Source of the DNA: Coptis chinensis
Taxonomy: Eukaryota > Streptophyta > Magnoliopsida > Ranunculales > Ranunculaceae
NCBI GenBank assembly: GCA_015680905.1
Contig: CM027378.1
Coordinates: 2,108,001 to 2,172,000, forward strand
Direction: 5' to 3'
Length of the DNA: 64,000 bases
Shown: positions 2,428-55,173 of the stretch, one piece after another
Numbering within the stretch: position 1 is the first letter of the stretch
How the letters are laid out: each line of letters opens with the position of its first letter
Position numbers and translations under genes: made by a program
The notes under the pieces: model-generated
What the model saw: only the letters and a program-made list of their open reading frames with translations
What the model was told of the DNA's origin: nothing
Database searches by the model: none

Positions 2428-2432
2428 GACGT
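2428..2432. repeat. Target-site duplication GACGT, left copy
   Basis: GACGT precedes the inverted LTR end TGATAAATGC at 2433. The same five bases follow the far LTR end CTTATCA at 27220-27224, where H1 sequence resumes with CTAGCTCAATTAGG. Uninterrupted relatives read AATAAAGACCTCTAGCTC, so the target is recognisable. Confidence 0.8.
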
Positions 2433-3080: not shown

Positions 3081-3082
3081 AA

Positions 3083-3095
3083 TGGCGCCGCTGCC
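3083..3095 (+). other. Primer binding site, tRNA-Asp type (short)
   Basis: TGGCGCCGCTGCC begins two bases after the LTR end and matches the 3' end of plant tRNA-Asp, the primer known for Athila elements. Pairing stops after 13 nt; the next bases (ATCTTA) do not match the tRNA. Element c has the identical 13-nt site. Confidence 0.75.
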
Positions 3096-6834: not shown

Positions 6835-7097
6835 ATAAAGTCTCGAGTATCTGACTATAAACGACTCAACTTTTGTGTTTGGTGCATTTCCTTTCATTTC
6901 CATATATTGGTGAGTGCACCATTAAGGTAACCGGGCCCTCCCTATGGAGTGTGTGGCTGTAAGTGCCGGATCCTAAGTCCACGTTTAAACATAATTCACG
7001 TTTTCCACTCTTGTATGTTTTCTCGGATTTTTTTGAGTCATGTTTCTCTATGGGGTGAATTATGTCTTTATTGTTTATTATTTTTATTTTTTAAAAT

Positions 7098-7128
<31 letters not shown>

Positions 7129-7136
7129 AGAATAAG
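6835..7136 (+). other. Non-coding region after gag-protease
   Basis: Begins with the family motif GTATCTGACTATAAACGACT (6847-6866), matched in element b, and ends in an A-rich and (AT)n tract (7090-7126). No ORF. The Tat-type element entered just after it. Confidence 0.5.
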
Positions 7137-7141
7137 CATAG

Positions 7142-8811: not shown

Positions 8812-8817
8812 GGTTTT

Positions 8818-8835
8818 TGGCGACTCTGCTGGGGA
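8818..8835 (+). other. Primer binding site of the Tat-type element
   Basis: TGGCGACTCTGCTGGGGA, six bases after the LTR end. The position and 18-nt TGG start fit a tRNA primer site; a tRNA-Arg primer is likely for the Tat lineage but I cannot check the match. Confidence 0.65.
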
Positions 8836-8974
8836 CATCCCTAGAGAGTCAGACTTACATTTTCGTTGAGGTGTTTCAGTTAAGATAGGAAAGAAGAAGG
8901 CTTATCCAGAAGCTAGTTGGAATAGAAGACCAGGGTTAAGGTTATCTCGTGCAACCATTAACTCGCTGATTCAA

Positions 8975-10740
8975 ATGGAGGATCTACCAGACGGTTCTTC
9001 TCAAGAGTTATCGCTGCCACCTATATCTTCATCACAGATGTATGTGCCACAAGGAAGTTCTCCACCAGCACCTCCATCTGAGGGACAAATTTTATCAGCG
9101 AACATTCGAGGTCCACATACATGTAATTCGGGTGAATCGTCAATCCCTACCAGTCAAGAGGAATTGATGGAGAAGGCGATGGAAAAGATGTTTCTCAAGA
9201 TGATGTCAAAATTTGCAATAACTCCAAGTCCGGGTCAACCACAACAACCAGGTATCACACTACCCCCCATGGTTAGTCCTAACTCTACCATTCTACCAAC
9301 CTCATTACCTACTCCGTATGCGACACATAGATCAACCCAATTACATGTTCCTATGTCAACCCATACTCCGTCCCAATTTTTTCCTCAGGATAACACAACC
9401 TACATGCCTCAACCATCCACTCATCAAACTTTTCAAAGCCCAAACCAAATTCCAGCTCCAACCATGATGTCCAACCCATTTATGTTACCAACCCCAACCT
9501 ATTTTCCACAAACTCCACAACCACTATTCTACACGAACCCCCAATACCAAGTGCAAAATCCAATCCAACCACCGGTTGACCCCGTAATGGAGGAGATTAA
9601 GAAATTGAAAGAAGCAATGACCAAGATGAAAGGTGAAGACCTGGACCTTGATAATCTATGTCCATATCCACAGATCAGAGTACCACATGGATTCGAATTT
9701 CCAAAGATGGAGCGATATGAGGGAACCGGTTGTCCAAAGGCTCACATTCGTATGTATGCAAGTTATCTACAACCGATGGGAATCGGGCCAGAACTAATGG
9801 TTCAACTATTCCAGAGGAGTCTTAAGGGTGCAGCCCTTACTTGTTGGATGAATACTGAAACGCAAAAAATCAAGACTTGGCATGAACTGGTAAACGCTTT
9901 CGTAGCTCACTTCTCTTACAACACTGATATCCAAATGGGCCGAAGGCAACTTGAAGCTTTGAAGCAAGGTCTGAATGAAAGTTTTACAGAGTACATTACA
10001 AGATGGAGGACAAAAGCGGCCCAAATCATTGATAGGCCCACGGAACAGGAGCAAATTAGGATGGTTATGAAGAGTTTGAACCAAGAGTATGCGACCAGGC
10101 TAAGTGCCAGTTATCATCCGACATATCAAGCCTTAGTTGCACTGGATCACAAATAGAAGATGGGTTATCATCTGGCAATATTTCTCCCGTCAGCTCAATA
10201 TCTACAGGATCTAACCCACAGAAGAAGAAGCCTCCCACTATAACGGTGAACAACAAAGAAGCCAATGTGGTTGCTGCACAAGTTCAACCTCAGCCACATA
10301 CGCAAATTCAGTCAGAAGTGACAACTCATCCTTTTTCCCATCAAGTCGGGTTTCCCAAGACAAAGAAGAGGCAGGGGTTTTCCCAGCAAATGCAGACAGT
10401 TCACAGAATTGGGCTTCCCATTACAAGTTGTATTGAGGGCTTTAGTCCAACAGGGCTTGATTACGTTAATGCACCCGAGGCCTCCTCCAAATCCGGTGCC
10501 ATTCTGGTATGACGCTTCAAAACATTGTGACTTCCATCAGGCTCCAGGTCACACGACAGAGAGGCGCATGCTCCTTAAACATCTTATCCAAAACTTAATT
10601 GATGAGGGTAAGATAGATGCGTCCAGCCTCGGCACTCCCAATATATCGACAAATCCACTACCAATGCATAATGGAAGAGTTAATACCTTGAAGCCGCCAA
10701 AGAAGGATCCGCATCATTCCTCATTCGATCGTATGGACAT
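8975..10740 (+). pseudogene. gag: gag, Tat type (frameshifted after codon 393)
   Basis: ATG 8975 opens 393 codons: an N-terminal part rich in P, S, Q and T (to about residue 205), then the retrotransposon gag core with PHGFEFPKMERYEGTG, FQRSLKGAALTCW, IKTWHELVNAFVAHF and LNESFTEYITRWRTKAAQI. The frame breaks at 10156 and the C-terminal part continues in other frames: 10409-10750 holds KHCDFHQAPGHTTERR, a zinc-knuckle-like motif in which the last cysteine appears replaced. The core pattern is characteristic of Tat-lineage gag. Function: particle assembly and RNA packaging. Confidence 0.8.
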
Positions 10741-10743
10741 CCA

Positions 10744-11325
10744 ATGTTAACACCACAAGGCCGATTAATCTTCAAGATGCAAATGGGAAGATGCATGGAG
10801 CAAACAAAGCCTAGAGGTATCCAATTAAATGAGGTGGTAGCACCATTTCTTCATACTCCACAGATTCAAAAGCCGTTCAAGTTGACTAGAGAGCACCTGG
10901 AATCCGTTATGATGCAGAGGCCCATTACAAAATGGGTAGATCCTTGGAATACATCTCAATTTACGGCATCACAAGTGGGGTCAGAACCTCAAGGACCTTT
11001 GATTCGCCAGAATCCAACTCAGCAGCAGGTGATCCAAACTCCGATCATAATCCCAAAGGTCCAGTTCGTGCCAGCCAAGAGTCACGATACCGAGGAGGTT
11101 CTAGGGAAGAAGTTAATTGAGCCCGAGAAAAGTACAGATGACTCAACAATCTCACTACATCAGTTGAAGCAATTAGAACCTAGTTTGGCAGAGGAATGTG
11201 TTGAGACTCACGGTTTGATAAGAGGAGGAAGGATATACAAGCCACCACACTTACAGAAGGATCAGGTCTTGGCCCAACAGCCTGACCCGCCTACCCGCCA
11301 TCGAACCGTAAAAGCAAGAGGGTAA
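10744..11325 (+). pseudogene. gag-protease linker of the Tat-type element
   Basis: A 193-codon open stretch of low recognisability, rich in P, Q and T, in another frame than the gag core. It lies where Tat elements have the linker between gag and protease and ends SLAEECVETHGLIRGGRIYKPPH-L-Q, a segment typical of Tat linkers. Frame changes around it indicate indel decay. Confidence 0.55.
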
Positions 11326-11539
11326 TGAAGTAATCCAACAATTGCAGAAAAAACAAGTCCAATATTTCCATATGGGGCTTACTCATGGCGCCACCCCCAA
11401 CATAGGCAAGCAGTTCTTCAAACCTTGAACCAAGCTCATGTTCCAGCTTCCATCCAGCCGAACGATTTGGCGCGTACCATCGCTTCCCTCAGGAAGACAA
11501 ACTCCACAACATTTTCTGATGATGATCTGACCCACCAGA

Positions 11540-11959
11540 TGGTATAACCCACACAAAAGCATTAACTATTACGGTGCATTGCAACAACCATAAGGTACCA
11601 TTTGTACTGATTGACAATGGATCCGGTTTGAATATCTGTCCAGTCAATTCTCTTCACGAAAAGCCATTGGAATCATGCCTGAAGACTTCACTTTCACTAA
11701 GGATACAGCAAGAGCAGTTCATGGGTTTGATAATCAGAGAAGAGAAGTCCTTGGAGAGTTTACAACCGACGTCCAAATAGGTCCAGTCACGTTCAAAGTC
11801 ACATTCTTGGCTATGGACATCGAGGCTAATTACAATTTCCTTTTGGGCAGACCATGGTTACACCAGGCCGGCGCAATTCCCTCTACACTTCACAGAAAGC
11901 TTAAGTTCTTATGGCAAGGGAAGATTATCTGCATTACTAGTGATTCAGATGTAAGGTAA
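11540..11959 (+). pseudogene. Aspartic protease, Tat type (frameshifted)
   Basis: Two overlapping frames read the retropepsin. First part (11574 on): VPFVLIDNGSGLNICP, with D-N-G-S where most retropepsins have D-T/S-G-A/S. A frameshift near 11680 then gives ARAVHGFDNQRREVLGEF, VTFLAMDIEANYNFLLGRP and W-L-H-Q-A-G-A-I-P-S, the flap and ILGRPW region of Tat proteases. The enzyme would cut the polyprotein. Broken by the frameshift. Confidence 0.75.
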
Positions 11960-11964
11960 TACCA

Positions 11965-12843
11965 ATGATTGAAGGAAAGTGTAACTACACTGAGGAACCA
12001 TTAGGGATTGTGGAGTTTAGAGCACCCGACAAGGAGAAGCTCCCTACCCCGTTTTGCAATGGAAATCCCAAGACGACTCAGTTGTTCCGTGAGCAGAACT
12101 ATTTTCTAGGACTTGGATTAGGAAAAAACCAAAACGGCACTTTAGAACCGCTGCAGATTCCTAGTCAAGATGATCGAAAAGGACTAGGCTATACTGAGGA
12201 GGTTGTGGAAGGACTGGCAGAATTGTTTATCGATTCTAACGCCACGGTGAATTATCTCAGATTGGCTCTACCTGATCTAGGGGCAGAGATTGAGGCTATT
12301 ATTGATTCCAATATATTTTGGGGCGAAGACGACGACCCAGATCCAAACTCAGAAGTCACTATTTCAGAGCCATATGTTAATTCCTATTCAGGATATCGCC
12401 AACTTAGGTTGGATCATGAGGCTAGACAGTTTAATTGGATAAATGAGGTTGGATCGACATCCTCCTCTTCAGGTATGGACTATACTCCATCTTTTACTTT
12501 GGCCAGTTTCCCCGGGTTAGATGCTGACCCAGGAGACGAGACTGTCACTCCTTATCATGTCCAGTGGGACCCTCAGACCATACTTGATTTGGATGATTTG
12601 TTGAATATGGAATCTATTGTTGACCTAGTTCCAATGTATGTTGAGAACATGCCACTTTCTGACTCCCAAACGCAATATGAGATTTGGGAAAGGTTTTTAG
12701 AGACCTTAGATTCTGATGAGGATCCATTCATTGATGGAGACTATGATGATTGGGGAACGCAAGTCATTATTGATCCAATCCTCAGCCATCATATTGCTCC
12801 GGTTAAGCCATCGGATGAGTCCGATAGGGCTCAAAGGCCGTGA
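11965..12843 (+). CDS. Tat-type pol N-terminal spacer with glycine-rich motif
   Basis: An intact 292-codon stretch directly after the protease. Near residues 48-80 it has FLGLGLGKNQNG, then DDRKGLGYTEE, a G-patch-like glycine pattern usual between protease and reverse transcriptase in Tat elements. The rest is acidic, ending before a TGA at 12841. It probably is part of a longer polyprotein broken by indels, not a separate gene; the ATG at 11965 is only the first methionine in frame. Confidence 0.55.
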   Translation: MIEGKCNYTEEPLGIVEFRAPDKEKLPTPFCNGNPKTTQLFREQNYFLGLGLGKNQNGTLEPLQIPSQDDRKGLGYTEEVVEGLAELFIDSNATVNYLRLALPDLGAEIEAIIDSNIFWGEDDDPDPNSEVTISEPYVNSYSGYRQLRLDHEARQFNWINEVGSTSSSSGMDYTPSFTLASFPGLDADPGDETVTPYHVQWDPQTILDLDDLLNMESIVDLVPMYVENMPLSDSQTQYEIWERFLETLDSDEDPFIDGDYDDWGTQVIIDPILSHHIAPVKPSDESDRAQRP

Positions 12844-12879
12844 AACCTTTTTCTAACCCTTTTTGTATATAGTAATATT

Positions 12880-13015
12880 TCAAAAAATCCAAAAAAATCA
12901 AATATTTCAAAAAATCCAAAAAAATCAAATATTTCAAAAATCTAAAAAAATCCAGATATTTCAAAAAACAAAAAAATTAAAAAATTTCAAAAATACAAAA
13001 AATCAAAAAAGTTTG
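12880..13015 (+). repeat. A-rich short tandem repeat
   Basis: Imperfect repeats of about 27 bp built from AATATTTCAAAAAATCC and variants. Slippage-like and non-coding, although a lysine-rich frame runs through it by chance. Confidence 0.7.
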
Positions 13016-13084
13016 CAAAATCCCACAGAATATAATTTACCCACTTGCCTTAGTGCAAGATGATTGAATGACTTGTGTAGATTA

Positions 13085-13985
13085 TTATGATCCCCTCCCC
13101 CCGATGATGAAGAAGGAATGGACAATGAAGCTGCTGAGTCCATTTTTTCTCATGAGCAGTCTGAGGATTGACAGACGATAGTCATTGTGAAGACAAAGAT
13201 CATCAACCTTGTCACCACAGATGAACCACGTTATGTGCAGATTGGTATAACCTTGATCCCCTCTGAGCGTTGAAGCCTGATCAAATTATTGAAGGAATCC
13301 ATAGAAGTGTTGATCATACCTATGACAATCTATTGTCTTAAGGTGGTAGATGATTTTCATTGTTCGAAGATGAGAGAATCACTCACCGAGAAGAAGAAAT
13401 TGAGGAGGAAGAAAGTTCAGCGGTTATGTTTGAGAAGATTTTTCAAATGTCTAAGATCACCAACATCAACATCAGCATTCAGCATTATGCATTTACCCTT
13501 GTGGAGAGGGCAAAGCTCCACAACATCATTTGATCAACTACCCTACTGAAGAAGGGGAATGTTCTGCATTCCATCAATCAACGGCTACTTAGCCAATCAA
13601 CCAACCAGCTACCCTACCGTGGAGAGGGCAAACTCCATATTGCATCATTAGCGTCCATTTGCATCCATTGAAGACATGAGAGCTATCTATCAAAGAAGTC
13701 AGCTGACTCGAATCTGATTACATCAACAAGCGGAATGCTAAGAGGAGTTCATCTACGATCAAAATTTTTGAGAGCCGAGATATATGAAGGAGGGCATTGA
13801 TGTTCTACAGGGACTTAGATACCAATGGAGACAGATTGTTGAAGTAAAGCTGAGCAAGCGAATCCAGACTAGAGTGGAATCAATGAACCAGAAAGTTCGA
13901 ACCTAACAGTGAATGTCCATTCACTATGAAGATTCTACATGGAAAATCCTACCAATGCCGACCAATTAAAGAGGTACTACTTTTT
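13085..13985 (+). pseudogene. pol remnant with the catalytic core deleted
   Basis: At 13190-13290 a frame reads TKIINLVTTDEPRYVQIG, then TLIPSER, stop, SLIKLLKE, matching the segment just before reverse transcriptase in Tat pol. At 13940-13985 the frame MENPTNADQLKRYYF matches the extreme C-terminus of Tat integrase polyproteins (N-A/I-D-x-L-K-R-Y-Y). Between them about 650 bp with no RT, RNase H or integrase motif remain, where some 4 kb would be expected. The element therefore lost its enzymes by internal deletion. Confidence 0.65.
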
Positions 13986-14622
13986 ACCCAACTTTGTTTA
14001 TTTTAAGACGAAGAGTATAGTGGAAATCGTAGAGAAACGATGGAACAGGCCATCTTTGATCGTTTTTATTTTAGCCTCATAAGCCCACCTAATGTCATAT
14101 GCTACCATTAGAAGCCCATTTGAGCCTTAGCCTATTCTTTTATTTCCCACAATACAAGCCCATATCCTTTAGGAAGCCTAATAAATCTTTAGCCTACCCA
14201 TAGATCACCCATACCTATTTTTATAGACCTTGTCATATTCCCGGGGCATCATTCCATCCATCCATCTTTGATCACGAAACAATTATCCCCATGTTATTTA
14301 TCCCAAGGAGTTGTTGAAAAAAATCCTAATGCAAGGGTAAAACCGTCATAGCTCCAAATGCTATGCTTAGAGTTGCACAAAATGATCGATACTGTTCCAA
14401 AATGGAAAACCTAAACAAGGGGCAGCGTCATTTAAGATTTGGGATCCTTATCATCATCTCACCACTATCATTCCAATTACTCCCCCCTTTATATGACAAG
14501 TTCTACTCCAAAAATAATTTTTTGATCCTATCCCTTCTTTCTGAACCCATCACCTAAGCTTACATTATAGTCCTATGAAAGTCCACTCTTGATCTCTAAG
14601 TCCACTATATCTCCTAGTTGAG

Positions 14623-14656
<34 letters not shown>

Positions 14657-15809
14657 AAAGCATTGGAGGATTCACTACTAGTGATTGCAATGTATGAGGA
14701 AGTTGTCTCCAGAAGATTGGTCCTATGCTTTATGCTCTATCTGTTTTGGAAGAAAGTTTTTGGGTGTCGTTCAGTACGTTGTGAAGGTCAAGCAATCAAA
14801 GGGACAAGAATATCATCTACTTCATAGGTGCCAAGTTTGATCGTACTTCTATCCTATGGTCGTCTTCATGCTCATCTTCTTGTCGGTAATTCATTCCCCC
14901 ACCTTCATTTGTTATTCAATCATTTGTGGTATTTCTTGTTCTATGGATAAAAAACTGTTTTGTTTTCCATTGTTTTCAAAATGAATTTTAGAAAAAAAAA
15001 AAAAAAAAAAATGATTTGTTTTCAAAAACTTGGTTTACTTTGGATGGCTTATGATGAAAAATCTAGGATTTCGAGCATGTAGAAAATTTTGAAGCCAATA
15101 TTCCTAACTAAACCATGTACTTGTTTTACTAACATAGCATGCATACACCACAATCTTTCTAACTATTCACGCTAACATAGTTGCATTGTTTTCATGCATA
15201 TCATGTATATTTCACTCCATTGTAATATGTGCAGTGAGAAATAAATTGTCTAACCTTTGCCGAGGAAGTGTCTCCAAGATTTATAATTGCTAAATGCCAA
15301 GAACACGTGAGAGCAAGGCTGCCATTGGTCAATAAGATAAGTGAGATTCCATTATAGATTGCCCCAAAGAATCACTGTTAGTTCGAAAAGAAAAAGAAAA
15401 AAATGCGTTACCATAGCATGGCGTGGTTTGTACTGTGTGGCGTGCCATCGCTTCTTCTCTCCTGGACATCTAAGGTACGGCTCTCCCATTCTTCACTGGA
15501 CGGTGGCAAGGGTATGTTTATTCCTCCTTTGGTCCTGTTTATAATCTTTATATAGGTTTGGTTGGACCGTCCAATTAGAAAGTACACGTGACTATGTTTG
15601 TTTAAGAAGTCGGTGGATTTTGTTTCCAAAAGAAAACTGTTCGTTTGGGTTTCAGAAACAAATGATTTGATTTTGAGAAAAGACAAAACTATTTGACTCT
15701 TCAAAGATTCCTTCCTTTTAAACCAACAACTGTTTCCCAAAAGAATGATTCGGTGCAAGCACCAGAATTGGAAGTCGGTGCCCCTTACCTTTTTTATCAT
15801 TCGGTCCTG

Positions 15810-15952
15810 TTCAACCAGTTTTGGACCGGTTTGATCCAGTTGGCCCAGGTTGACCCGGTTGGTCTAGACTGACCCGGGTTTGAACTGTTTGACCCGGTTT
15901 TCACCAATTGACCCGGTTTTGACCAGTTTTGACAGTTGACCAAGTTTGACCA
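15810..15952 (+). repeat. TTGACCCGGTT imperfect tandem repeat
   Basis: Roughly ten imperfect copies of an 11-15 bp unit with core TTGACCCGGTTT. Non-coding. Such repeats are common in 3' regions of Tat elements. Confidence 0.7.
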
Positions 15953-16601
15953 AAAAAAAAAAAAAAAAAATCCAAAAACTTTTCAAAAATAAAAAAATGA
16001 TGAATATTAGTACCATGGGGTTCTTACCCTCCAGTATGAGAAAATATTCATCAAGTTTTGTTTTTCACCGCACTATTGGTAACCACTTGATCATTAATAT
16101 CATTTCGGTAATTCCATTTGTGCAACATTAAAATTGTTCGCGAGAACAATGTCGGTTTTAACGACAAGTTTTCACGGATGGATCAGCCTGAACTCATAGT
16201 GACAGTCTTTTCCAACCCAAGTATACTTGAACGTAATTGATTGATTGATTGATTGAACTTGAATATCATCATCCCCAGCATCCATCTTTCATCTCCAGCA
16301 CATCTCTTGTCTTCCCCAGCAGTGTTTGTCTGTGTCTTCGTCCATCTTCTTTAGAATCTTCCATCTCCAGTGGATCTTCTTGTTCTCCCCGGTGAGTCTT
16401 TCGTCAGTATTTGGTTATCACCATTATATGAGAATATTTAATCTAAGTCAAAATCATGAATGAATTGATCTATCCATTTAATTTCACCAGTTTTCTAAAA
16501 TGAATTTGAAAAATATCAGATTTCAAAAAAAAAAATTTGTCCCTTGATTTCAAAAAAGTTGTTCATCATTTTCAGAAAATATTTTTCAATCAACCAATAT
16601 C

Positions 16602-16750
16602 ATGTTACGCGGTGTAAGTCCGTCCGATGCTTCCGCTAGCATTGATATTTTGTCTTGTGGTATAAGTCCGTCCGATGCTTCCACATATAATCCAGTCACC
16701 ATGTTGCGTGGTATAAGTCCGTTCGATGCATCCACCAACATACAATCAGT
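16602..16750 (+). repeat. Three copies of a 50-bp tandem repeat
   Basis: Units begin near 16602, 16655 and 16701, each with GGTATAAGTCCGTCCGATGC then TTCC or CATCC. The units diverge outside the core. Confidence 0.8.
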
Positions 16751-16931
16751 TTTAAGCCCTCACAAACAACTTGAAAAAAAATCAAGGATTTCAAATATCC
16801 AGGGAAATGCCCTCTTTCAAAAATATTTTTCAAATGAATTTTCAAAAATTGCATGAGATCTTTTGGCTGGAGCTTGGCAAAAATGGTTTGTCTCCATGGC
16901 TTTGCCGTTCAGTTGCAAGCAACCTCCGCCA

Positions 16932-16943
16932 AAGAGGGGCAAC
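16932..16943 (+). promoter_or_regulatory. Polypurine tract of the Tat-type element
   Basis: AAAGAGGGGCAAC immediately before TGTAGACACC, the usual Tat-type plus-strand primer tract. Confidence 0.8.
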
Positions 16944-18608
16944 TGTAGACACCCCATTTTTGCACTCCAGGCATAATTCATTCACGATTTTGCCTTGAAT
17001 TAAATTTGATCATATAAGGTGATTTACTTTCTAGAGTCTTCTTTTCTATATCAAACTTCTTTCTTTTCATCTTCTTTTAGCGTCTTTAGACTCTCCTCAT
17101 CATGTTCTAGCTATGGCTGAAGTTTCGTTGCTTTCAGAGTTTTGAGTTGAAAATGACCAAAATGCCCCCGTAACCCTTTGGAGCCCAAATCTCGTTTTTT
17201 CCACTCTTTCTTTGGATGAGATTATTTCATATTTGAATTCCCCTTGAAAAATCCTTCGAAATGAGTACAAGCTTGCCTAGGTTCCTTTTGGATTTCGAAA
17301 CCCTAATCTTTGCCTCTATCCCGCTTTATTAGTATATGACCGTTGAGTGCAACGTTTTTTGGAGTAAGATTTCGACCCAAGGATATTTTTAAGAGTTCAT
17401 GGACCTTCCTAATGGATTAATTAACAATTTTTGTGAAGAAGAGTTTGCCTAATTTTGACCTGGTCAAAGGGAATTTGCAGTGTTCATAAAATGGTCAAGA
17501 TGGGCCTTTTTGGTTGGATTTGGACATATGCACATGGGCTGTGGATCCAGCTCGAGTTGGACCTTTTCATTAGGTTTTCTAGCCCATTTTCAAGCCTCTA
17601 AAAACCTAGAGAACCTTCCTTAATTGTTTGATTTGATTTGATTCCTAAAATCAAGAATATTCTAGAGAATATGCCATTTTGGAGCCAAGTTTGGAAACCC
17701 TGGATTATGGGCTCATTAAGGACGTGTAGGGCTTGATTTTTTGCCCTAATCCATCTGAAATATCCAAAGATCAAGGGCCAAGATCGCACCCCTTATCCCA
17801 CCTCTTGAATCAAGGGCCAGATTTAGGAGGTGCAACTAGAAAGAGATCAAGCCATTGGATTTTTCTTCATCAATACTCAGCCATTGGATCAAACTCATTA
17901 CCATATTGAAATCCATCCCAAAAAGCTATAAATATGGGTCTCATTCACCCATAAAAAGAGAATCTAGAGCAAGCTAGAGCTAGGAATTCGGAGTTAATAA
18001 TCTGGACCTAGTTATTCAGAGCTAATAGCCTTCTTTTCTTTAGTGTTCTTCATTTTTTCTTCTAATTCTTCATTTTATCCTTCTTTTCTTCTTGTCGATC
18101 TTGAGTAGAAACTTCTTTTCACCAAAAGTTGTTTTTTTCCTCAAATCACCTGTTTCAATCCAAAAATCACAATTGTCAATGCAAGATCAAGTTTATCATC
18201 AATCAATCAATCAATCTACAATCAAGTATGAGGCAATATTCCAAATCAGGTGACATCTTTCCTTTTCCTTTTATTTCCTTTAGCATTGCATATTAGGTTA
18301 TCTTTTTTTAGTTTTATTATAGCATATAGTTATTAGTTTTTAATCCAACTTGGTAGATTAATTTTTCAAGCTTTCTTCATTTGCCTATCTTAAACACGTT
18401 ACACCTCAATAGAAGTAAGGCTGGTTTTTACCAGGCGATTGTGGGTGCCTAACACCTTCCCACATCGTACCTTGACTCCCGAACCAAATAATCATCTAGT
18501 TTCGAGGGCTAGTCCTTCACATAGGTTTTACTCAACTTTTCCTTAATAAAGTTAGTGGCGACTCTAAAATCAATTGCATAGACCTAGGTACACATTTTTG
18601 TGCGTACA
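16944..18608 (+). repeat. 3' LTR of the Tat-type element
   Basis: Direct repeat of 7142-8811. Followed by CATAG (18609-18613), the second copy of the target duplication. Confidence 0.92.
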
Positions 18609-18613
18609 CATAG

Positions 18614-19383
18614 TAACCTAGGAAGTCTCGGGAATCTGACTTTAAAAGACCCACTGCTAAAAACAAATTTTCTAAGCTTCGTTGTAAAAATTTGTTTGGG
18701 GGTGGGGTGTTCGTGTTTCCATACTAAATATTTATGTCTCATTAGAGTTGCTTAGGCCGTTTTATTGTATTACGATTCGGGTTGACATAATCCATGAATT
18801 TAGAGTTCAATTGTTCGCATAACGTAAGTCATGCACGCACTTCGAGGCATTTTCCACTATCTTATATGTCATCCACGGTCGGAATAGAGTGTTTTATGGA
18901 TCATTGGATTGGAAATTCTCTCCTGATCATTTCCATATCTCGTTCGCAAAAATCGGACCGGTAACGAAGAGGCAATTTTGATTTGAAGTTTCGCGAAAAA
19001 TCGAAAAAAAATCACAAATTTCGATTTTGGGCTTGGGCCCAACCCGCGCCCACCGACAGTGCGACCGCGCCCTTACCTTAACCAACAGTCGATCTTCTTC
19101 TCCATCCGCCATTAACGCCAAGCTCCAAAAACCTAAAAAAACAAAATGAAAATAAAAAGAAAACGAGAATTAACCCACGCCCAAAATCAAATCCCAACCC
19201 AAATCGACTCCAAACACCACCGACCACCACTCCCACCAATTTACATCACTAAAAACCACCGAAAATTCAAAATTTTGGTGCTGCTGTGCCACCACTCCAC
19301 CACCACCACGGTTTGCTTCAACCGGTCTATTAAAATTCAACCACCACATCACATTTAAACCCCCACTACATTCCAAACTTCCA
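18614..19383 (+). other. Element a resumes: non-coding with purine tract
   Basis: Starts in mid-motif (GGAATCTGACTTTAAAAGAC at 18631-18650), as in element b at 31271. A purine run TTTGTTTGGGGGTGGGGTG at 18689-18707 resembles a polypurine tract. GC-rich words CCCGCGCCC and GCGACCGCGCCC occur at 19030-19075. Confidence 0.5.
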
Positions 19384-20527
19384 ATGGCTCAACAACGCCG
19401 AATTTTGCCGGAGCAAGCTTTTACCGCCGACCACTTCGTGCCGTTTTACGGTGACGAGATGATCAGTCGAGACTGGAATAGCTTGTGGTACTCGACTGAA
19501 GCCTATTACCACGAGGACTTAGTCTGACGGTTCTATGATACGAGGGAGTTGGAAGGGACTAGGATTTTTGTTGTTGTAGCGAAGAGGCGGAAGGAAGTGA
19601 CGACTAGGTTGTTATCGAGATTCTAGGCATTCCGCCTAGAATCCATCCGATGTCACCCTGCAGGAGTCCCAAAGATAATGGGGTAGAGCCATTGATGCAC
19701 GAGACAGTTATTGGAGGGACTACAATGCAAGATCGCATTGTGTTCGACAAAGCTTGCCTTTTAGGACCAACCACCGCTACTGGTGAGTGGATTGGTCTAA
19801 CGCCCGTGGAAGGGGAAGGTCACGATATCAGCCTGAATCTGCCTCCATATCTTATGGATACTCCGTGAGCGGAAGTATGACTTCTGCATCTTAGAGTTTT
19901 TACCGAAAGCATGATTAGGGGAGTAGGGAGGTCCGTTGCCCTCCCCGTGTTGATAACAAAGATCATGCTCAAGTTGAGAGTAGCTCAGCGACCGATCGGA
20001 CATACATCACTCTCCACCGTAACCCTCGTGATCTATAAGGAGTGTGTCCAACGGGTTTGGAGATTGGGCTGAGGATAGGGAAGAAGAAGAAGAGGATGGA
20101 GGAGCCGAGAATGCCGAGGAGGTCGGGGACATCGGGATACCTCCGGGGATGAGGAGGACTTGACCTGTTTTGACGCTGATGCCTTGGAGAGGTGCTAGGC
20201 GATCAGAATGCATGGCTGTGATCCATCGAGGCATCGTTAAACTTAACACTATCTGTGAAGACCTCCGGACTCGACAGCAACGATGCATCACAACTTCTAG
20301 CTCCCATCGGCCGAGAGGACGGTGAGGTGGGAACAGATGAGCCGAGCTAGCTAGAAGCTTCGACCACCGATTCCGGGGCGAGATGTTGACCGCGATTCCC
20401 ACCTCACGGGGACTCTCCTTCGAGGACACACCATCCAGCACGAAAGTCGCCGCCGGCGATCTAATGGTGCTCGGCTCTTCAGAGCTCGGAGCGATCTCGA
20501 GCATGTTCCCTCCGCCACCGCCCGAGT
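19384..20527 (+). pseudogene. ORF-Y, degenerate, family not recognised
   Basis: ATG 19384 opens MAQQRRILPEQAFTADHF, ending at a TGA near 19527. Further pieces follow: ELEGTRIFVVVAKRRKEVTT (19545-19610), the open frame 19650-19868, and near 20190-20280 MAVIHRGIVKLNTICEDLRT. Indels and stops separate them. The order and the acidic middle (20080-20130) suggest one former protein of about 370 residues. The middle piece has the general look of the Athila-linked putative plant transposon protein domain, but this is weak. Element c lacks ORF-Y altogether. Confidence 0.4.
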
Positions 20528-21309
20528 AGCTGGGATAGTATAGTTTGATGTTTTATGTTTTATTTGTAATTTCATTATTGTTATTTATTTTAATGCAAGT
20601 TTATTTCCGTAATTTGAATTTTGTAGTGTAATGTACTCCGAACAAAAATTTTAATATAAGGAGTTATTTTCAGTATGCGTGGTTGTTTAATATTGACCCC
20701 ACCTTCCCAACTTGTTTGGGGGTGATTTTATCTATTCCAGCATGATTTTTATATAACTCTCGTGTTAGAATTTATTATGAGTCAAGGTGAAAATATGGTC
20801 TGTTTAGGCATATATATGAATAAGTATCATGGTAGGATGAAATCTAGATTAAATAGGTACATTCTATCATAAAATCAACCTAAAAGATAATGGTTTGAAT
20901 TAGAATCAAGGAAATGAGTTGTTTCCGTTTTGGTTTGGAAATTTTAGAATTTCCTGAACCGCCGTAATTAGTTTTGGCAACTTCCCGATCCATTTTAGCA
21001 ACTTTAAACCTATATAAACTTGATACAATCTATCCTCACAACTCACACTACACCTAAACTCCATCACTCACCTTTCACTCCCGCGATTCCCTCGTTTCGC
21101 TCATTTTCTCGAAGTTTCTCGAACTCCGAAGCGCTTCAAGGCTTCTGAGAGAGCGACTTTCGCCGCTCAGATATTTTTCTGAAGTTTTGTCGAGCGCTTG
21201 CGCTTCTATCGAGCGCACTTTCGCGCCCGACTTCGTGGGACCAGAAAATTTCCAGTTTTTTTGCGTAGTATCCGGATCATTCGCAGCTATTCCAAAGCGT
21301 AATTTTGAG
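20528..21309 (+). other. Spacer with purine tract and ORF-X leader
   Basis: AT-rich DNA containing a purine run TTGTTTGGGGGTG at 20711-20723, then a possible promoter (TATATAAAC at 21011) and a leader with GC-rich words (AGCGCTTGCGC, GAGCGCAC, CGCGCCC) at 21130-21235. The leader corresponds to 1-298. Confidence 0.5.
21011..21019 (+). promoter_or_regulatory. Possible internal TATA box for ORF-X
   Basis: TATATAAAC about 300 bp upstream of the ORF-X start, followed by a C/A-rich leader (ACTCACACTACACC) as in many plant 5' UTRs. An internal promoter is inferred; expression through splicing from the LTR is the alternative. Confidence 0.35.
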
Positions 21310-22223
21310 ATGACATCTCCAACATTGATACCGAATAGTCTTTCAAGATTTGTTCCAAAGCACTACTTATGGTGCTTGGTTTCGCTGTTTATCATCACAT
21401 TCGCTGGCCGGGAGCCGCTTATGGTAAGACCGGATGCACTTTATTCTCCAACACTAGCATCTTATTTTTACGATAACTGCATTTTCTTTGAAAGACCAGA
21501 TGGAGAACAAGTGTTCTCCATCAACATTGATAATGAACCAATGGAAATTACCAAGTTCTTGCTAGCATTTGTTCTTGGACTTGCTATGCCCGCTGAAATA
21601 CAAGACCCATGGTGCTATTGGGTCGATAATATGTATGTCTATACTTACGAGTTTTTGCATGAGTCGTATGGCGCGGGCATTTTCCGTATTGAGGACCAAG
21701 GGGGAATAACGTCGCTTTGGTAGCCCTGGCCCATGAACATAGGAACTGTTATGTTTTGGATCATGCTAAACATTTTAGGGGAATGGCGTTTTTCTTACGT
21801 GAATGATGCCACTTGCGGCGTCTTCCTTTTTAGCCACGGGACGATGTGTCATGACCTTCCCGAACCTTGATGTCTAGTTTAGCTCGATCCCATAGCATGA
21901 GGCATAAGTACCTTCAGATGCCCGCTCTAGTTTCTCGATTATGCTATGTTTTCTTTCCTGTTTTTGTACACGCTTCACGGATTGGATTACGGCCGACAAT
22001 CGCATTTTACCCACCAATAGTATTATTCGATCTTTCCGTCGTAATGACTTGGCAAGGGTGGAGGATACAACCTCATCTGGTTGCACCCTACACCCCGTCA
22101 GACCAAGTGGCTCTTAATAGGTTAGCAATAATAGATGATAAATGGCGGGAAGCCTGGCAAATTATCATGGCATGGCAGGACGCGAAGGAACCTCACTTCT
22201 TTATGGAAGAAGAGGATGAGTAA
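21310..22223 (+). pseudogene. ORF-X, best-preserved copy (element a)
   Basis: Starts ATGACATCTCC at 21310. The first open piece (to 21723) encodes about 137 residues with HYLWCLVSLFIITFAG, a hydrophobic segment near residues 18-35, then PDALYSPTLASYFYDN and DPWCYWVDNMYVYTYEF. A break at 21723 is followed by an ILGEWRF segment and by the open frame 21867-22223, with MTWQGWRIQPHLVAPY, VALNRLAIIDDKW and an acidic C-terminus. About 300 residues in full. Recurs in H1 and element c but not in element b. I do not recognise the family; an env-like membrane protein is possible but unproven. Confidence 0.6.
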
Positions 22224-24016
22224 GATGATGAGTAATGCGAGAGATAAGGTAAGTTTTTATTCTACTTAGTGTCTGCTTATGTCCCAAGCAATTTCATTCT
22301 TGTTAACCCCATAATGGGTAGAACTCGTATAGAGTTGTGTCAGTTTTTATTTCCTATATTAGTATGTTCTAACCTTGTTTTACAGATGTTTCTAAATTTC
22401 ACGCGCTTCAATGGTATTTTTCCTACCCTCTTTATTTAAATGCTTTGAGGACAACGCATACTTCTTGTTTGGGGGGCATAGAAACACGTGTAATTAAGGC
22501 ATCTGTTAGGATATAGATAGAGTTAATATGCATTTGTTTTCAAGTTAAAATTTTAAAAATTCAAAAATATAAATAAATAAGTTCATGCTATACACTTAGG
22601 AATAGTGGTATTGTTTTCCTTCTCTATGCTCTTAACAATCTAGAAATCTCACGTAGCTTTTGCATTAGAATAATTGTTAGAAACTTAGGTTAATATGTAG
22701 GTAATAATCTTTGCATCTATCTATAAATATATTACATGAGTATCTATGATTGTTAGCAGATAAGTTTCAAATCTAGGCTAGAGTACTTATTCTACAAATC
22801 CTGTGAGAATATAGCCTAAAAGCCTTATATGAGCAAAACATTTGAGAAATGACACAAGGGAGAAGTAAAATCCGGATAGAGAAATCACACGTCCACTTGC
22901 TTGATCATTATGCCATATCCTAAGCGAGAATTTAGGCCCTCTTTGGATCGATATAGCCAAAAATTCAAACCTATGAATGATTTCCCGCTAGTCGCCCCTC
23001 TGAGCCTTTCTTTAGCCTTTCATAAACCACAATCCCTTTACCCTGTTACAAAAACAAAAACAAAATAAAAAAAAAAATCAACCTACCCAATTTAGAATAA
23101 GTCTGAGAATAGAATGAGGAAGAAAGAAGAAGAGAAAAACTTGTGTAAACAAAAGTTAGTTAATTGCTTCAGAAAATAAAGAAAAGAAGTTTCCATCCAA
23201 GGAAAAGAAAAAATAGAAATAAATAAAAACTCCAAAAATAGAATAAAAGGGAGTCAAAAGCCAAAGAAAAGAAAAAGAAAAATATGGCTAGGGATGGAAA
23301 CAAAGTATAGAAGTAAAAGAACATAACAAGGTTTTCTAAGTTACATAATATGAAAACTCTATTATCTCAGACTTGTCCTTTTTGAATATCCATTTCCTTC
23401 CTTCTTAAACCATCTCCTAATCCCCGCAACACACCTAATAAAGACCTCTAGCTCAATTAGGAATAGGCTAGTGTGATAGTAAGTGGCAGATGTGTTTGAT
23501 CGACTCCGGCTTCCTTGTTGTCATTGAGATTGTAAGGTAAAGTGTGCCCACTGCGCACTAGAGTAGCGAAACTTGAGTGGAAAAAATCGGAGTGTTGTAT
23601 CTTGACTATTATTGTGAGAACCTAGTTAAGGACGCTATTCCGAGTTTCAGAAACGGACCTGCTAGACATTTCATAGTATTACTCATTGTATATATGTTTA
23701 TTATAGATGATTGATTATTATGCATATATTAGTTTAGTTTTTTTTTTACTTGGTTATTCTTGTTCATAGCTAGTGAGATGTATAGATAGTTTGGAGCATG
23801 AATAAGGAAACAATAGTTTTATTTCTTAGTTGTTGTAGTATAGATGAAGTTTGTGAGTACCTTCACTGGAAAACTCTCACGAGGCTATAACTCGTCCACT
23901 AGGGAATTCCTAGTGGTTGAAGGCCTTGTTGCATATGGTCAATGCAATCGCACTCGGCGAAACGAGAAGTAGATAGAACTCCATTTTTGGTCACTTATGT
24001 TAATTTCTCATCTTTG
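22224..24016 (+). other. 3' non-coding region of element a
   Basis: Contains a predicted intron (22249-22385), a second purine-rich module (22440-22476, TTTGAGGACAACGCATAC then TTGTTTGGGGGG), and about 1.5 kb of AT-rich DNA shared with H1, element b and element c. No ORF. Confidence 0.6.
22249..22385 (+). other. Predicted 3'-UTR intron after ORF-X
   Basis: Donor AAG/GTAAGTTTTT at 22249, 26 nt after the ORF-X stop; acceptor CTTGTTTTACAG ending at 22385. Both sites are conserved in H1 (1228-1368). Confidence 0.45.
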
Positions 24017-24052
24017 CTTGAGGACAAGAAAAATGCTGCTTGGGGGTGGTTT
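24017..24052 (+). promoter_or_regulatory. Polypurine tract of element a
   Basis: GCTTGAGGACAAGAAAAATG then CTTGGGGGTGGTT directly before the LTR start TGATAAGAGCCC. Confidence 0.75.
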
Positions 24053-25593
24053 GATAAGAGCCCAAAACTGTAGTTTTAACCCTTTAACAAATTACTTTTT
24101 AGACCAATTATGTGAGTAATAATTAAGAGTTAACACTGATTACGTGTTTTTATGCATTTTAGGCTTCAAAGTCCATTATGTGCAGAAATGTGCCACTTTA
24201 GCGAGATAAAGGAGCAAAGGTCGGTTACTAAGGAGTTCCGTGATTAAAGGCCAAGTTTCTAGAAGACAAAGCCTTTCCCAAAGCCCTGGTCAAAAGCTGA
24301 AAAAAAGTCGACGGCGTGGCAAAAGTCAAAGTCGTGAGAACTTCCTCGGGCCATATCTTTGGACTCAGACCTCGGAATGGGGCCTACCTTATGTCAAAAC
24401 GACCGGCTCCGAAAGAGATTTCCAATGGTCTAAGACTTGATCCAATCAAAGGAGCAAAAGTGGACAAAAAGTCTGTTGAAGCCAACTGCAGCTGAAGAGG
24501 CCTTTTTGGACTAAAAGAATTGGGTTTTGGGCCTGATTCCCTGGCCCAAAACATGGCTCCAAACCCATGCACGATTTTTGGATCTGAATGTATAAAAACA
24601 AAAGTTTAGCTCTTTGTTATGGGTAGATCTTTTAGTAAAGAATAGTAGATTTTAAGGTTAGAAAATAAAGGTAGCTTAGAATAGAAAGTAGCCATTAAAA
24701 TAGCTTCTAGATCTAGTTTTTCATGTAGATTAATTAAGTTTAGTTCCATTTCAATTATTGTATTAGATTAAACCTTTGAATCTTGTTCTTTATTTTGATT
24801 AGATCAATAAAGTAGAATTTTTATCAATTTCGATTTTTGTCATTTCCATTTCTAGATCCAATTTCAATTTCTGTCCTTATTGCATTTTAGTCATTAAATT
24901 AGATTTCATTATTGTTTAATTAAGTAAATTTCAATTCTTTATATCATGTTTAGTTTAAATTTAATCGGAAATGATTGCGTAATGATTCTCGGCTAAACCT
25001 CAATTAGAGGGGGTGGAGAAGCCTTGATGAAAGCTTGATTTCGATTAACGTAAATTCGTCGTAATTTCCTTTCCACTCTAGAAACGTTTAGTTCACCATG
25101 AGAATGGGTTTAATCGTTCATATGCTAGTTATTAATTAGTAGAAATGCCATGTGTAATTAGGGATTAGGAAGAACCAATTGTTAAGCGGGCGATTCAATT
25201 CGGATTACTGACGATTTGTAGTTAATAGGATTAAGTCGAAGTTAAGGTGGAATCAATTCCCTCTAACTCCTTATCATCGAATCAACGTAGCATTCCCTTA
25301 GTTATTCCCATCGTCGACTAGTTGCATTTTAGGTGGGTAGTTGCATCGTAGTCTAGTTGCCTTTTTAAGTAAAATCTCTCATTAGACCTTAAGTAGAATA
25401 CTTACACTTGAGAACATAGCATCTTGGAAGGACTAAGAGTGGAACGAATCACTCTACTCCACTATATCTTATAGACTTGAGAGTAGAATCTTTGATAAAA
25501 AATATAGGCATTAAGATTAAGTTTAGTTTTACTTGCGTTTAGAGTTCATCGCTTTATTTCGTAGTTAAGACTATTCAATTTTAGCATTTATCA
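24053..25593 (+). repeat. Direct LTR of element a, followed by a tRNA copy
   Basis: A 1541-bp LTR from TGATAAGAGCCC to GCATTTATCA. It is in the position of a 3' LTR (polypurine tract before it) yet is followed by an extended tRNA-Asp match instead of a target duplication. A TATA box (TATAAAAACA) is at 24591. Confidence 0.88.
24591..24600 (+). promoter_or_regulatory. TATA box of the Athila-type LTR
   Basis: TATAAAAACA in GGATCTGAATGTATAAAAAC. The same box occurs at 28371-28380, inverted at 26674-26686, and inverted in both LTRs of element c. Confidence 0.6.
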
Positions 25594-25595
25594 AA

Positions 25596-25696
25596 TGGTG
25601 CCGCTGCCGGGGATCGAACCCGGTCATTATAGTATAGTGGTGAGTATTCCCTTTGTCATGCGAAAGTGACCCGGTTCGATCCCCGCAGTGGCTTCA
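25596..25696 (+). pseudogene. tRNA-Asp(GUC) primer copy between two LTRs
   Basis: Two joined copies of tRNA-Asp. Bases 25596-25625 are the complement of the last 30 nt of the tRNA (primer site extended through the T arm). Bases 25623-25696 are the sense strand of nearly the whole tRNA: 5' GTCATTATAGTATAGTGGTG, anticodon GTC at 25655-25657, T-arm GGTTCGATCCCCG, and a 3' end TCA in place of CCA. The copies share GTC at the junction. Spacers of two bases separate them from each LTR end, as in a normal primer site. Lost bases in both arms make it unlikely to work as a tRNA gene. It looks like a primer tRNA copied during reverse transcription. Confidence 0.85.
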
Positions 25697-25698
25697 TT

Positions 25699-27219
25699 TG
25701 ATAAATGCTAAAATTGAATAGTCTTGCCTACGAAATAAAGTGATGAACTCTAAACTTAATCTTAATGCCTATATTTTTTATCAAAGATTCTACTCTCAAG
25801 TCTATGAGATATAGTGGAGTAAGTGATTCGCTCCACTCTTAGTCCTTCCTTCGCGATGCTATGTTCTCAAGTGTAAGTACTCTACTTAAGGTCTAATGAG
25901 AGATTTACTTAAAAAGGCAACTAGACTAATATGCAACTACCCACCTAAATGCAACTAGTCGATTTTACGGGAATAACTAAGGAATGCTACGCTGATTCGA
26001 TGATAAGGAGTTGGGGAAATTGATTCCACCTTTAACTCGACTTAATCCTATTAACTACAAATCGTCAGAATCCGAATTGAATCGCCCATGTAACAATTGG
26101 TTCTTCCTAATCCGTAATTACACATGGCATTTCTACCAATTAATAACTAGCATGTGAACGATTAAACCCATTCTCATGGTGAACTAAACGCTTCTAGAGT
26201 GGAAAGGAAATTACGACATTTAATCTACGTTAATCGAAATCAAGCTTTCATCAAGGCTTCCACCCTCTAATGGAGGTTTAGCCGAGAATCATTACGCAAT
26301 CATTTCCGATTAAATTTAAACTAAACATGATATAAATAATTGAAATTTACTTAATTAAACAATAATGAAATCTAATTTAATGACTAAAATGCAATAAGGA
26401 CAGGAATTGAAATTGGATCTAGAAATGGAAATGACAAAAATCGAAATTGATAAAAATTCTACTTTTTTTATCTAATCAAAATGAAGAACAAGATTCAAAT
26501 GTTTAATCTAATACAATAATTGAAATGGAACTAAACTTAATTAATCTACATGAAAAACTAGATCTAGAAGCTATTTTAATGGCTACTTTCTATTCTAAGC
26601 TACCTTTATTTTCTAACCTAAAAATCTACTATTCTTTACTAAAAGATCTACCCATAACAAAGAGCTAAACTTTTGTTTTTATATATTCAGATCCAAAAAT
26701 CGTGCATGGGCTTGGAGCCATGTTTTGGGCCGAGAATCGCCCCAAAACCCAATTCTTTTCAAATCAAAAGGCCTCTTCAACTGCAGTTGGCTTCAACAGA
26801 CTTTTCGTCCACTTCTGCTCCTCTGATTGGATCAAGGCTTAGACCATTGGAAAGCTCTTTCCGAGCCGGTCGTTTTGACATAAGGTAGGCCCCATTCCGA
26901 GGTCTGAGTCCAAAGATATGGCCTTCGAAAGTTCTCACTGACTTTGTGTGTCAAGCCGCCTCGCCGACTTTTCAAATTTTGATCGGGCTTTTGGAAAGGC
27001 TTTGTCTTCTAGAAACTTGGCCTTTAATCACGGAACTCCTTAGTAACCGACCTTTGCTCCTTTATCTCGCTAAAGTGGCACATTTCTGCACATAATGGAC
27101 TTTGAAGCCTGAAATGCATAAAAACACATAAGCAGTGTTAACTCTTAATTATTACTCACATAATTAGTCTAAAAGTATGACTGTTAAAGGGTTAAAACTA
27201 CAGTTTTGGGCTCTTATCA
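25699..27219 (-). repeat. Inverted LTR of element a (head to head)
   Basis: A 1521-bp minus-strand LTR, from TGATAAATGC (its U5 end, next to the tRNA copy) to GGGCTCTTATCA (its U3 end). It contains no adjoining internal region: the target duplication GACGT follows at once. The length and content are those of a plus-strand strong-stop product. Several percent divergent from 24053-25593 by eye. Confidence 0.88.
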
Positions 27220-27224
27220 GACGT
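27220..27224. repeat. Target-site duplication GACGT, right copy
   Basis: Pairs with 2428-2432; H1 sequence continues at 27225 with CTAGCTCAATTAGGAATAGG. Confidence 0.8.
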
Positions 27225-27833
27225 CTAGCTCAATTAGGAATAGGTTAGTCTGATAGTAAGTGGCAGATGTGTTTGATCGACCCCGGCTACCTTGTTGTCA
27301 TTGAGATTGTAAGGTAAAGTGTGCCCACTACACACCTTTCGAGTAAATAAACTTGAGCGAAAAAATCGAAAGTGGTTTTTGTCTTGACATTTATGTGAGG
27401 ACCTACTTAAGGACGCTATTCCGAGTTTTTATAAACGAACCTGCTAGGCATTTCATAGTATTACTCATAGTATATATATTTGTATCATAGATGATTGATT
27501 ATTATGCATATATTAGTTTAGGTTTTTGACTTGGTTATTCTTATTCAATTGCTAGTGAGATGTATAGATAGTTGAGACATGAATGATGAAACAATAGTTT
27601 TATTTCTTAATCGTTGTAGTATAGATGAAGTTTGTGAGTACCTTCACTGGAAAACTCTCACGAGGGCTATAACTCGGCCCACTAGGGAATTCCTAGTGGT
27701 TTAAGCGCCTTGTTGCATATGATCAATGCAATCGCGACTCAAATAAACGAGAGTAGTTAGAACTCCATTTTGGTCACTTATTCTAATTTCTCATATTTGC
27801 TTGAGGACAAGCAAAATGCTGTTTGGGGTGGTT
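27225..27833 (+). other. H1 resumes: last 600 bp before its LTR
   Basis: Repeat of 23450-24052, 52750-53150 and, inverted, 33912-34520. Non-coding. Ends in the polypurine module GAGGACAAGCAAAATGCTG then TTTGGGGTGGTT. Confidence 0.75.
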
Positions 27834-29311
27834 TGATACGAGCCCAAAACTGTAGTTTTAACCCCGTAATGTCATACTATTAGACCAATTATGTGAGTAA
27901 TAATTAAGAGTTAACACTGATTACGTGTTTTTATGCATTTCAGGCTTCAAAGTCCATTATGTGCAGAAATATGCCACTTTAGCGAGATAAAGGAGCAAAG
28001 GTTGGTTACTAAGGAGTTCCGTGATTAAAAGCAAAGATTCAAGAAGACAAAGCCTTTCTAAAGCCCGGTCAAAAGCTGAAAAGTCGACGCGGGCAGAAAC
28101 AACACTCAAAGTCAGTAGAACTTCCGAAGGCCGTATCTTTAGACTCAGACCTCGGAATTGGGCCTACCTTATGTCAAAACGACCGGATCGGAAAGAGCTT
28201 TCTAATAGTCTAAGCCTTGAACCAATCAGAGGAGCAAAAGTGGACGAAAAGTCTATTGAAGCCAACTGCAGCTGAAGAGGCCTTTTTGGACTGAAAGAAT
28301 TGGGTTTTGGGCCTGATTCTCTGGCCCGAAACATGGATCCAAGCCCATGCACGATTTTTGGATCTGAACATATAAAAACCAAAGCTTAGCTCTTGGTTAA
28401 TGGTAGCTAATTAGACCTAAAAACTATATATAATTCTAGATCTAGTTTTCAATAGATTAATTAAGTTTAAGTTCCATTTTCAATTCTTGTTTTAGATTAA
28501 GTCCTTGAATCATTGTTCTTGATGGATTAGATAAATAAAATAGTTATTTTGTCAATTTCAATTTTTGTCATTTCAACTTATAGATCTAGTTTAAATTCTT
28601 GTTGATTATCATTTCTTAGTTTAAGTAGATTGAAACATTGTTAGTTAAATTAGTTAAGTTAGAATTTTAATATGATGTGTAGTTATAATTCAATGGGAAA
28701 TGATGGGTTGATGACTCAAGGCTAAAACCTCCATTAGAGGGGTTGATGAAGCTTTGATGAAAACTTAGTGGTATAGTGTAGAAGCGTTGTAGAATCTATT
28801 CCACTCTAGAAGGTCGTGATTCGCTATGAGAATGGGAGGACGACCTCACATGCTAGTTAGTATTTGGTAGAAATGCCATGAACACTAGGGATTAGAACTC
28901 AAAATTCTTGCCGTAAGAACGTAAGAATCGAGATACAAGAATCTATGCTAGGTTATTAAGTTGGATTCGAGGTGGATTCAATTCCCCTCTAATCCTTTAT
29001 CTAGATTCAAAAACAATCATATTTCCATAGCATTCGTAGTTTAAATTCAACATAATCAATTTCATATTGTATCGTAGTATAACACCCTTCGTAAAGCTCT
29101 CATTAGACTTAAGACCGATTAATTAGACATAGAAAACATTCCATGCTAGAGAACTAGGAGTGGAACGAATTTGTTACTCCACTCTATTTCGATAGAATTG
29201 AGAGTAGAAACTTTGATAAAGTATAAGGCACTTATGATAGTTTAGTTTACTTACGTTTTGAGTTTCATCGTTTATTTCGTAGGTAAACTTTTATCATTTT
29301 ACCTTTTATCA
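27834..29311 (+). repeat. LTR shared by H1 (3') and element b (5')
   Basis: A 1478-bp LTR, TGATACGAGCCC to CCTTTTATCA, with a TATA box at 28371. It is correctly preceded by H1's polypurine tract but followed with no target duplication and no primer site by the middle of an Athila-type gag. Confidence 0.85.
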
Positions 29312-41375: not shown

Positions 41376-41377
41376 TT

Positions 41378-55167: not shown

Positions 55168-55173
55168 TTAAAG

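Follow-up and report, generated by a model that had tools for sequence, protein, structure and literature searches.

The window, a stretch of 64,000 nucleotides from Coptis chinensis, contains a single large LTR element insertion at 2433..27219, both ends of which are palindromes built from inverted LTR sequences. The palindrome at the right end encloses a copy of tRNA-Asp between two complete head-to-head LTRs, and the palindrome at the left end joins an inverted LTR fragment to a truncated direct LTR. A canonical provirus carries two direct and nearly identical LTRs at its ends, whereas the outer ends of this insertion are inverted LTR sequences and its 5' (inner left) LTR is truncated at the palindrome centre.

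A single insertion within an older related element

A perfect 5-bp duplication of GACGT (2428..2432 on the left and 27220..27224 on the right, both on the plus strand) and TG..CA outer ends bound 2433-27219. Read directly, the left boundary is ...AATAAAGACGT at 2428-2432 and then TGATAAATGC..., and the right boundary is ...CTCTTATCA ending at 27219 and then GACGTCTAGCTC. In a self-comparison of the window, the 3' internal region of an older element is cut at one and the same coordinate at 2432 and at 27220. When the two flanks are joined with one copy of GACGT, they match, in the bases surrounding the duplication, three homologous sites (at 23.4, 34.5 and 52.7 kb) that are uninterrupted, the exceptions being one C/G difference and, at 34.5 kb, also one C/T difference. 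The flanks are about equally distant from the internal region of the insert itself (87.6% identity over 1440 columns on the left, 88.5% over 624 columns on the right), which fits a single interrupted copy. The right part of that copy (27225..29311, plus strand) consists of 3' internal region and its own 3' LTR (LTR-C, 27834-29311). Given the cut at the same coordinate, the restored site and the GACGT duplication, 2433-27219 is one insertion with integrase-type ends, lying inside an older related element.

The original prediction was confined to 25594-25698. These limits are too narrow, as both self-comparison and direct reading of the bases extend the structure from 2433 to 27219. It had gone unrecognized that the tRNA palindrome terminates a single insertion of integrase type flanked by a 5-bp duplication, and the second, independent palindrome at the left end (2433-3095) had not been noticed.

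The primer binding site and the element family

Two ordinary primer sites of the tRNA-Asp kind are present in the window, one belonging to the insert (3083..3095, plus strand) and the other at 41363-41375 (minus strand). Each has a 13-nt match to the tRNA followed by ATCTTA, which bears out the original claim that ordinary sites of this family match 13 nt only. The site of the insert starts 2 nt after the LTR. The TG..CA LTR ends and the 5-bp target duplication are likewise those of Ty3/gypsy (Athila-like) elements, and the insert is probably one of these, a label drawn from the tRNA-Asp primer site and not from a reverse transcriptase tree.

The internal region of the insert lies on the plus strand in two parts, a 5' part (3096..7141) and a 3' part (18614..24051) that ends in a polypurine-rich stretch before the right-hand direct LTR. 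None of its six ORFs of at least 120 aa outside the nested element (0 of 6) has any match in Pfam, whether to gag, reverse transcriptase, integrase or another domain, and the inserted copy may be non-autonomous or decayed. Within the 5' part, 3719-4381 aligns with 40169-39499 of a neighbouring element, whose ORF at 39392-40237 matches the Pfam family Retrotrans_gag. A protein search with this neighbouring gag (39392-40234, minus strand) returned one match, a hypothetical protein of Tanacetum coccineum with 26% identity over 45%. Viral contigs scanned for the LTR end followed by the primer site contained 0 matches. The plant Ty3-gypsy elements Athila, Calypso and Diaspora have a tRNA-Asp primer site, a polypurine tract and long LTRs according to PMC1142308, and the insert resembles them in all three features. 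The primer site of Diaspora, as given there, matches over 18 nt and lies 5 bp after the LTR, whereas that of the insert matches over 13 nt and lies 2 bp after it (PMC1142308).

The two parts of the internal region are separated by a younger nested LTR element (7142..18608, plus strand, target duplication CATAG). Its LTRs (7142-8811 and 16944-18608) are 97.8% identical, its ORF at 8870-10153 matches Retrotrans_gag, and a further ORF at 11944-12840 matches a G-patch domain just above the cut-off, an unusual companion to Retrotrans_gag. The neighbouring element of tRNA-Asp type (32871-42420, minus strand) has LTRs at 32871-33913 and 41378-42420 that are 98.3% identical, and the ordinary primer site at 41363-41375 belongs to it. 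Elsewhere in the window are two regions of non-LTR-type reverse transcriptase, at 43753-46503 (RVT_1, zf-RVT, RVT_3) and at 55168-59095 (RVT_1 and RVT_3, with Exo_endo_phos below its cut-off), accompanied by a DUF4283 ORF at 53768-54424. Pieces of a Copia-type polyprotein are found at 47506-50140 on the minus strand (RVT_2, with rve and gag_pre-integrs below their cut-offs).

The right-end palindrome contains an entire tRNA-Asp copy

The inner right arm is a complete direct LTR, LTR-A (24052..25593, plus strand). It is followed by AA, the complement of the last 30 nt of tRNA-Asp (25596..25625, minus strand), an entire tRNA-Asp-like sequence (25623..25696, plus strand), TT, and the outer right arm, a complete inverted LTR whose U3 end is outermost (LTR-B, 25699..27219, minus strand). 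LTR-A was read directly from the sequence, and both tRNA segments were identified by alignment as well as by direct reading. This order had been proposed at the outset, and direct reading of 24052-27219 confirms it. A reverse-transcribed tRNA abuts the U5 end of an LTR, as at the retained-tRNA LTR junctions of the MMLV and HIV type. The complement and the sense segment share GTC at 25623-25625. The original prediction correctly placed the junction at this GTC, which is the 5' end of the tRNA and not its anticodon; the anticodon arm is damaged, with a one-base loss and a two-base gain in the alignment to a plant tRNA-Asp.

A plant tRNA-Asp(GTC)+CCA sequence served as the reference for this comparison; its alignment to 25623-25696 covers the full length and has 61 matches, 11 mismatches and 5 gap columns. 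The tRNA segment reaches a local score of 41.5, and none of 1199 other 105-nt pieces of the window exceeds 17.0. ARAGORN called no tRNA gene in the whole window, and an Rfam search of 24000-29500 at E<=1 found no tRNA; the segment is therefore a decayed copy and not a recognisable gene. ARAGORN with loosened thresholds gave inconsistent isotypes, and that output was left unused. The CCA 3' end is not encoded by eukaryotic tRNA genes. In 25623-25696 the sequence begins at the mature tRNA 5' end and TCA stands at the position of the mature CCA. The extra sequence thus derives from a tRNA, as was claimed, and from a mature one. We also judge the claim of reverse transcription into an uncleaved tRNA to be right.

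The likeness to a tRNA extends over the whole length of the segment, as it would if an ordinary genomic tRNA-Asp gene lay between two LTR insertions. However, such a gene should fold as a tRNA, lack an encoded CCA and have host flanks, whereas this segment has a CCA-like 3' end and directly abuts the primer-site spacers AA and TT with no host DNA between. Together with the negative ARAGORN and Rfam results, these features make a genomic gene extremely improbable.

The last 30 nt of the tRNA occur in two copies that are not identical, with 4 mismatches and 3 gap columns in 31. Their divergence exceeds that of the LTR arms, but most of the tRNA differences fall at CpG, and a CpG-linked process probably explains most of the damage in this CpG-rich tRNA.

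The left-end palindrome

The outer left arm (2433..2765, minus strand) is an inverted LTR fragment with its U5 end outermost, reaching LTR-A coordinate 25232. The inner left arm (2762..3080, plus strand) is a truncated direct LTR corresponding to LTR-A coordinates 25270-25593, and is followed by AA and the 13-nt primer site. The two arms share CTTA at 2762-2765. Their turn points lie 38 nt apart in an LTR of ~1540 nt, a proximity with a chance of ~5% for two independent uniform points. Near the palindrome centre (2730-2745) the outer arm is without 29 nt between two GATT repeats. These 29 nt are present in both LTR-A and LTR-B, and their loss is likely a later deletion that left the palindrome asymmetric. 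A turn at the RNA cap, the end of strong-stop DNA, was considered and is ruled out, as the TATA-like TATAAAAA of LTR-A, read as a promoter by eye, lies near 24590 and the palindrome turns at about 25232-25270.

Read on the minus strand, the insertion has U3 outermost at one end and U5 at the other, like an ordinary antisense provirus, and one might suppose that such a provirus was inverted or gene-converted after insertion. Simple inversion is ruled out by LTR bookkeeping. Two complete LTRs and two U5 fragments exceed what one provirus supplies, and the 5' ~42 nt of the tRNA cannot derive from a primer site, so we regard any rearrangement after insertion as highly improbable.

Relationships among the LTR copies

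Across the last ~310 nt common to all four LTR copies, 52 alignment columns differ, and 4 of these are informative for the four-copy split. All 4 join the two left arms against LTR-A and LTR-B, and 0 favour either other split; the 4 columns reflect some 3 events, each of them in a ragged stretch rich in indels. After ordinary reverse transcription the inner left LTR should resemble LTR-A. Its grouping with the outer arm instead lends thin support to an origin by fold-back.

Between the outer and inner left arms, 7 of 309 sites differ; between LTR-A and LTR-B, 97 of 1513 do, many of them in local clusters. Differences are concentrated at CpG. Between LTR-A and LTR-B, 12 of the 38 CpGs differ and 19 of 54 difference events lie at CpG (8.8 expected; 1 of 2000 simulations was as high). 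Corresponding values are 8 of 26 for the LTRs of the nested element (2.1 expected; 2 of 2000), 7 of 14 for the LTR pair 32871/41378 (1.6 expected; 4 of 2000) and 4 of 10 for the left arms (1.5 expected; 112 of 2000). Among the paired LTRs of 24052-27219, 7142-18608 and 32871-42420, the differences at CpG are often ragged multi-base events. Such clustering could come either from the decay of methyl-cytosine or from consensus errors where cytosines are methylated.

The latter possibility bears on whether the structure might be a sequencing or assembly artefact, either a fold-back chimera or a mis-join. Palindromes are typical of artefacts, and the CpG clustering of the changes that separate LTR-A from LTR-B could stem from such consensus errors. 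However, many substitutions and indels distinguish the arms, which would not be so in a fresh fold-back, and a perfect target duplication surrounds the whole insert between the halves of one interrupted element. We consider an artefact very unlikely.

A proposed fold-back model for both ends

On balance, 2433-27219 is probably an integrase-mediated insertion of an abnormal, tRNA-Asp-primed cDNA of Ty3/gypsy type (Athila-like), in which both strong-stop DNAs had folded back. The outer left arm starts at the U5/tRNA site and the outer right arm at the U3/polypurine site, which are the starting points of the two strong-stop DNAs. At both ends the extra bases are in the outer arm, as 38 nt of minus sense on the left and as additional tRNA on the LTR-B side on the right. 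Since fold-back synthesis leaves the loop in whichever arm is made first, its position points to the outer arm as the earlier one at each end. This polarity is consistent with inward priming by folded minus- and plus-strand strong-stop DNA. Inverted arms with the loop in the first-made arm are found at both ends, given a later deletion on the left: the missing 29 nt include the TAAG on which fold-back would prime, so the deletion must be assumed to have followed the turn.

At the right end, plus-strand strong-stop DNA primed from the polypurine tract would have copied U3-R-U5. With the tRNA primer still attached and the usual block in the tRNA presumably absent, it would have run past its usual stop to the tRNA 5' end. 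The GAC at its 3' end could then have paired back on the GTC at complement positions 28-30 and been extended inward, regenerating 27 nt of the tRNA before joining or copying the minus-strand LTR. Later copying through the hairpin end would give LTR-A, the tRNA and inverted LTR-B. At the left end, minus-strand strong-stop DNA would have halted ~362 nt from the U5 end, folded back via CTTA/TAAG and been extended into U5 and the primer site, after which it may have acted as a plus strand and transferred to the body of the element. Transfer of such a product would explain why the left end has no U3 and carries an inverted and a truncated direct LTR. The two termini of the final linear DNA would have been a normal U5 end and a normal U3 end, making it suited to insertion by integrase with a 5-bp duplication.

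When the minus strand of LTR-B is folded, the left turn falls at the foot of a stem-loop, with CTTA on TAAG (predicted pairing 0.40, equalled by 8.8% of stop positions). In the LTR-A minus strand the predicted pairing of the left 3' end is an unremarkable 0.13, equalled by 25% of stop positions, which counts against fold-back. DNA folding assigns the 3-nt GAC/GTC pairing at the right end a probability of 0.001-0.03, also against fold-back, and the idea of a right fold-back driven by strong structure in the tRNA complement is unsupported. The mismatch between the two tRNA copies counts against fold-back as well.

The main rival is microhomology end-joining of cDNA fragments before integration, the composite then being integrated. 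On the right, an LTR-A-ended cDNA carrying a 30-nt tRNA copy would be joined at GTC to a plus strand containing the full tRNA, and on the left, a truncated left LTR would be linked at CTTA with a fragment of LTR in inverted orientation. The 3-nt and 4-nt microhomologies at the junctions are as expected from such joining, and in HIV-1 the LTR junctions of circles can contain inserted tRNA or primer sequence, according to PMC5618025. Because the right fold-back pairing is weakly predicted and the two tRNA arms differ, end-joining retains an appreciable probability, though we think it rather unlikely. It would need two independent joins, each near-symmetric (38 nt of ~1540 on the left), both of which must put the extra bases in the outer arm and leave an intact integrase end, and it does not predict that the inner left LTR should group with the outer arm over LTR-A. 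For the right junction, two plus-strand copies joined to each other, as in the original prediction, are still worth considering, though fold-back priming better accommodates the polarity at both ends.

Comparison with known reverse transcription products

Components of the proposed fold-back route have precedents. The HIV-1 plus strand is normally halted by m1A58 of the tRNA, and on an unmodified tRNA it can reach the tRNA 5' end (PMC13191261). This 'P1' product on unmodified tRNA-Lys3 corresponds to the plus strand proposed for the insert. However, P1 is outside the shorter P2-P4 products that this 2026 review gives as the only active ones (PMC13191261), whereas in the insert a P1-like product apparently reached the genome. 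HIV-1 minus-strand strong-stop DNA is described as self-priming, yielding aberrant cDNA whose formation nucleocapsid suppresses (PMC4668388). Both cases would involve extension of a folded-back strong-stop DNA, but in the insert the product was apparently used for strand transfer and integrated. Ty3, of the same superfamily as the insert, also copies tRNA into its first plus strand. According to PMC5371799, this involves 12 nt of the tRNA and the strand is displaced and discarded as a dead end, so that, unlike in the insert, it is not inherited.

Near-full copies of tRNA-Gly with CCA beside an LTR are reported for an HIV provirus and for MMLV circular DNA (Colicelli and Goff), as summarized in PMC12220202. 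They share with the insert a near-complete reverse-transcribed tRNA with CCA adjoining the LTR. However, these copies lack 4 or 5 bases at the tRNA 5' end and the tRNA is not the cognate primer (PMC12220202), whereas the 5' end is complete in the insert and the tRNA type matches its own primer site. Inverted LTR pairs are absent from those cases, whereas the tRNA of the insert is inside an integrated palindrome. The authors of PMC12220202 argue that integrase could not have inserted their chimera; both outer ends of our insert, by contrast, are proper LTR ends.

The original prediction held that no element with this arrangement had been described. This stands for the arrangement as a whole: in the full-text literature searched, from which subscription papers are mostly absent, we found no integrated element combining a near-complete tRNA copy with self-primed strong-stop DNA. 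It does not stand for near-full tRNA copies at LTR ends, which have the precedents above (PMC12220202). What appears to be new is the combination of palindromes at both ends, a cognate-type tRNA copied to its 5' end, and integration with a target duplication.

Implications

The insert looks like the fossil trace of accidents in replication, of a kind that normally leads nowhere. As evidence from a chromosome, it would indicate that a plus strand can still be productive after copying the entire primer tRNA, and would show that strong-stop fold-back is able to replace normal strand transfer in vivo and that integrase accepts a palindrome-ended product. We suggest, as speculation that is more probably wrong than right, that this group of elements possesses a salvage route, in which tRNA-copying plus-strand strong-stop DNA forms a hairpin and primes, and palindrome-ended cDNA remains an integrase substrate because its outer ends are real U5 and U3 ends. 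If such salvage recurs, ordinary LTR finders would be overlooking a class of retrotransposon insertion in which two LTRs stand head to head around a tRNA core, and these insertions would supply natural inverted repeats. The signature, an LTR end with AA and then over 18 nt of tRNA complement, is searchable and would show how often plant elements copy uncleaved or undermodified primers. Long LTR palindromes of this kind are also candidates for double-stranded RNA and silencing.
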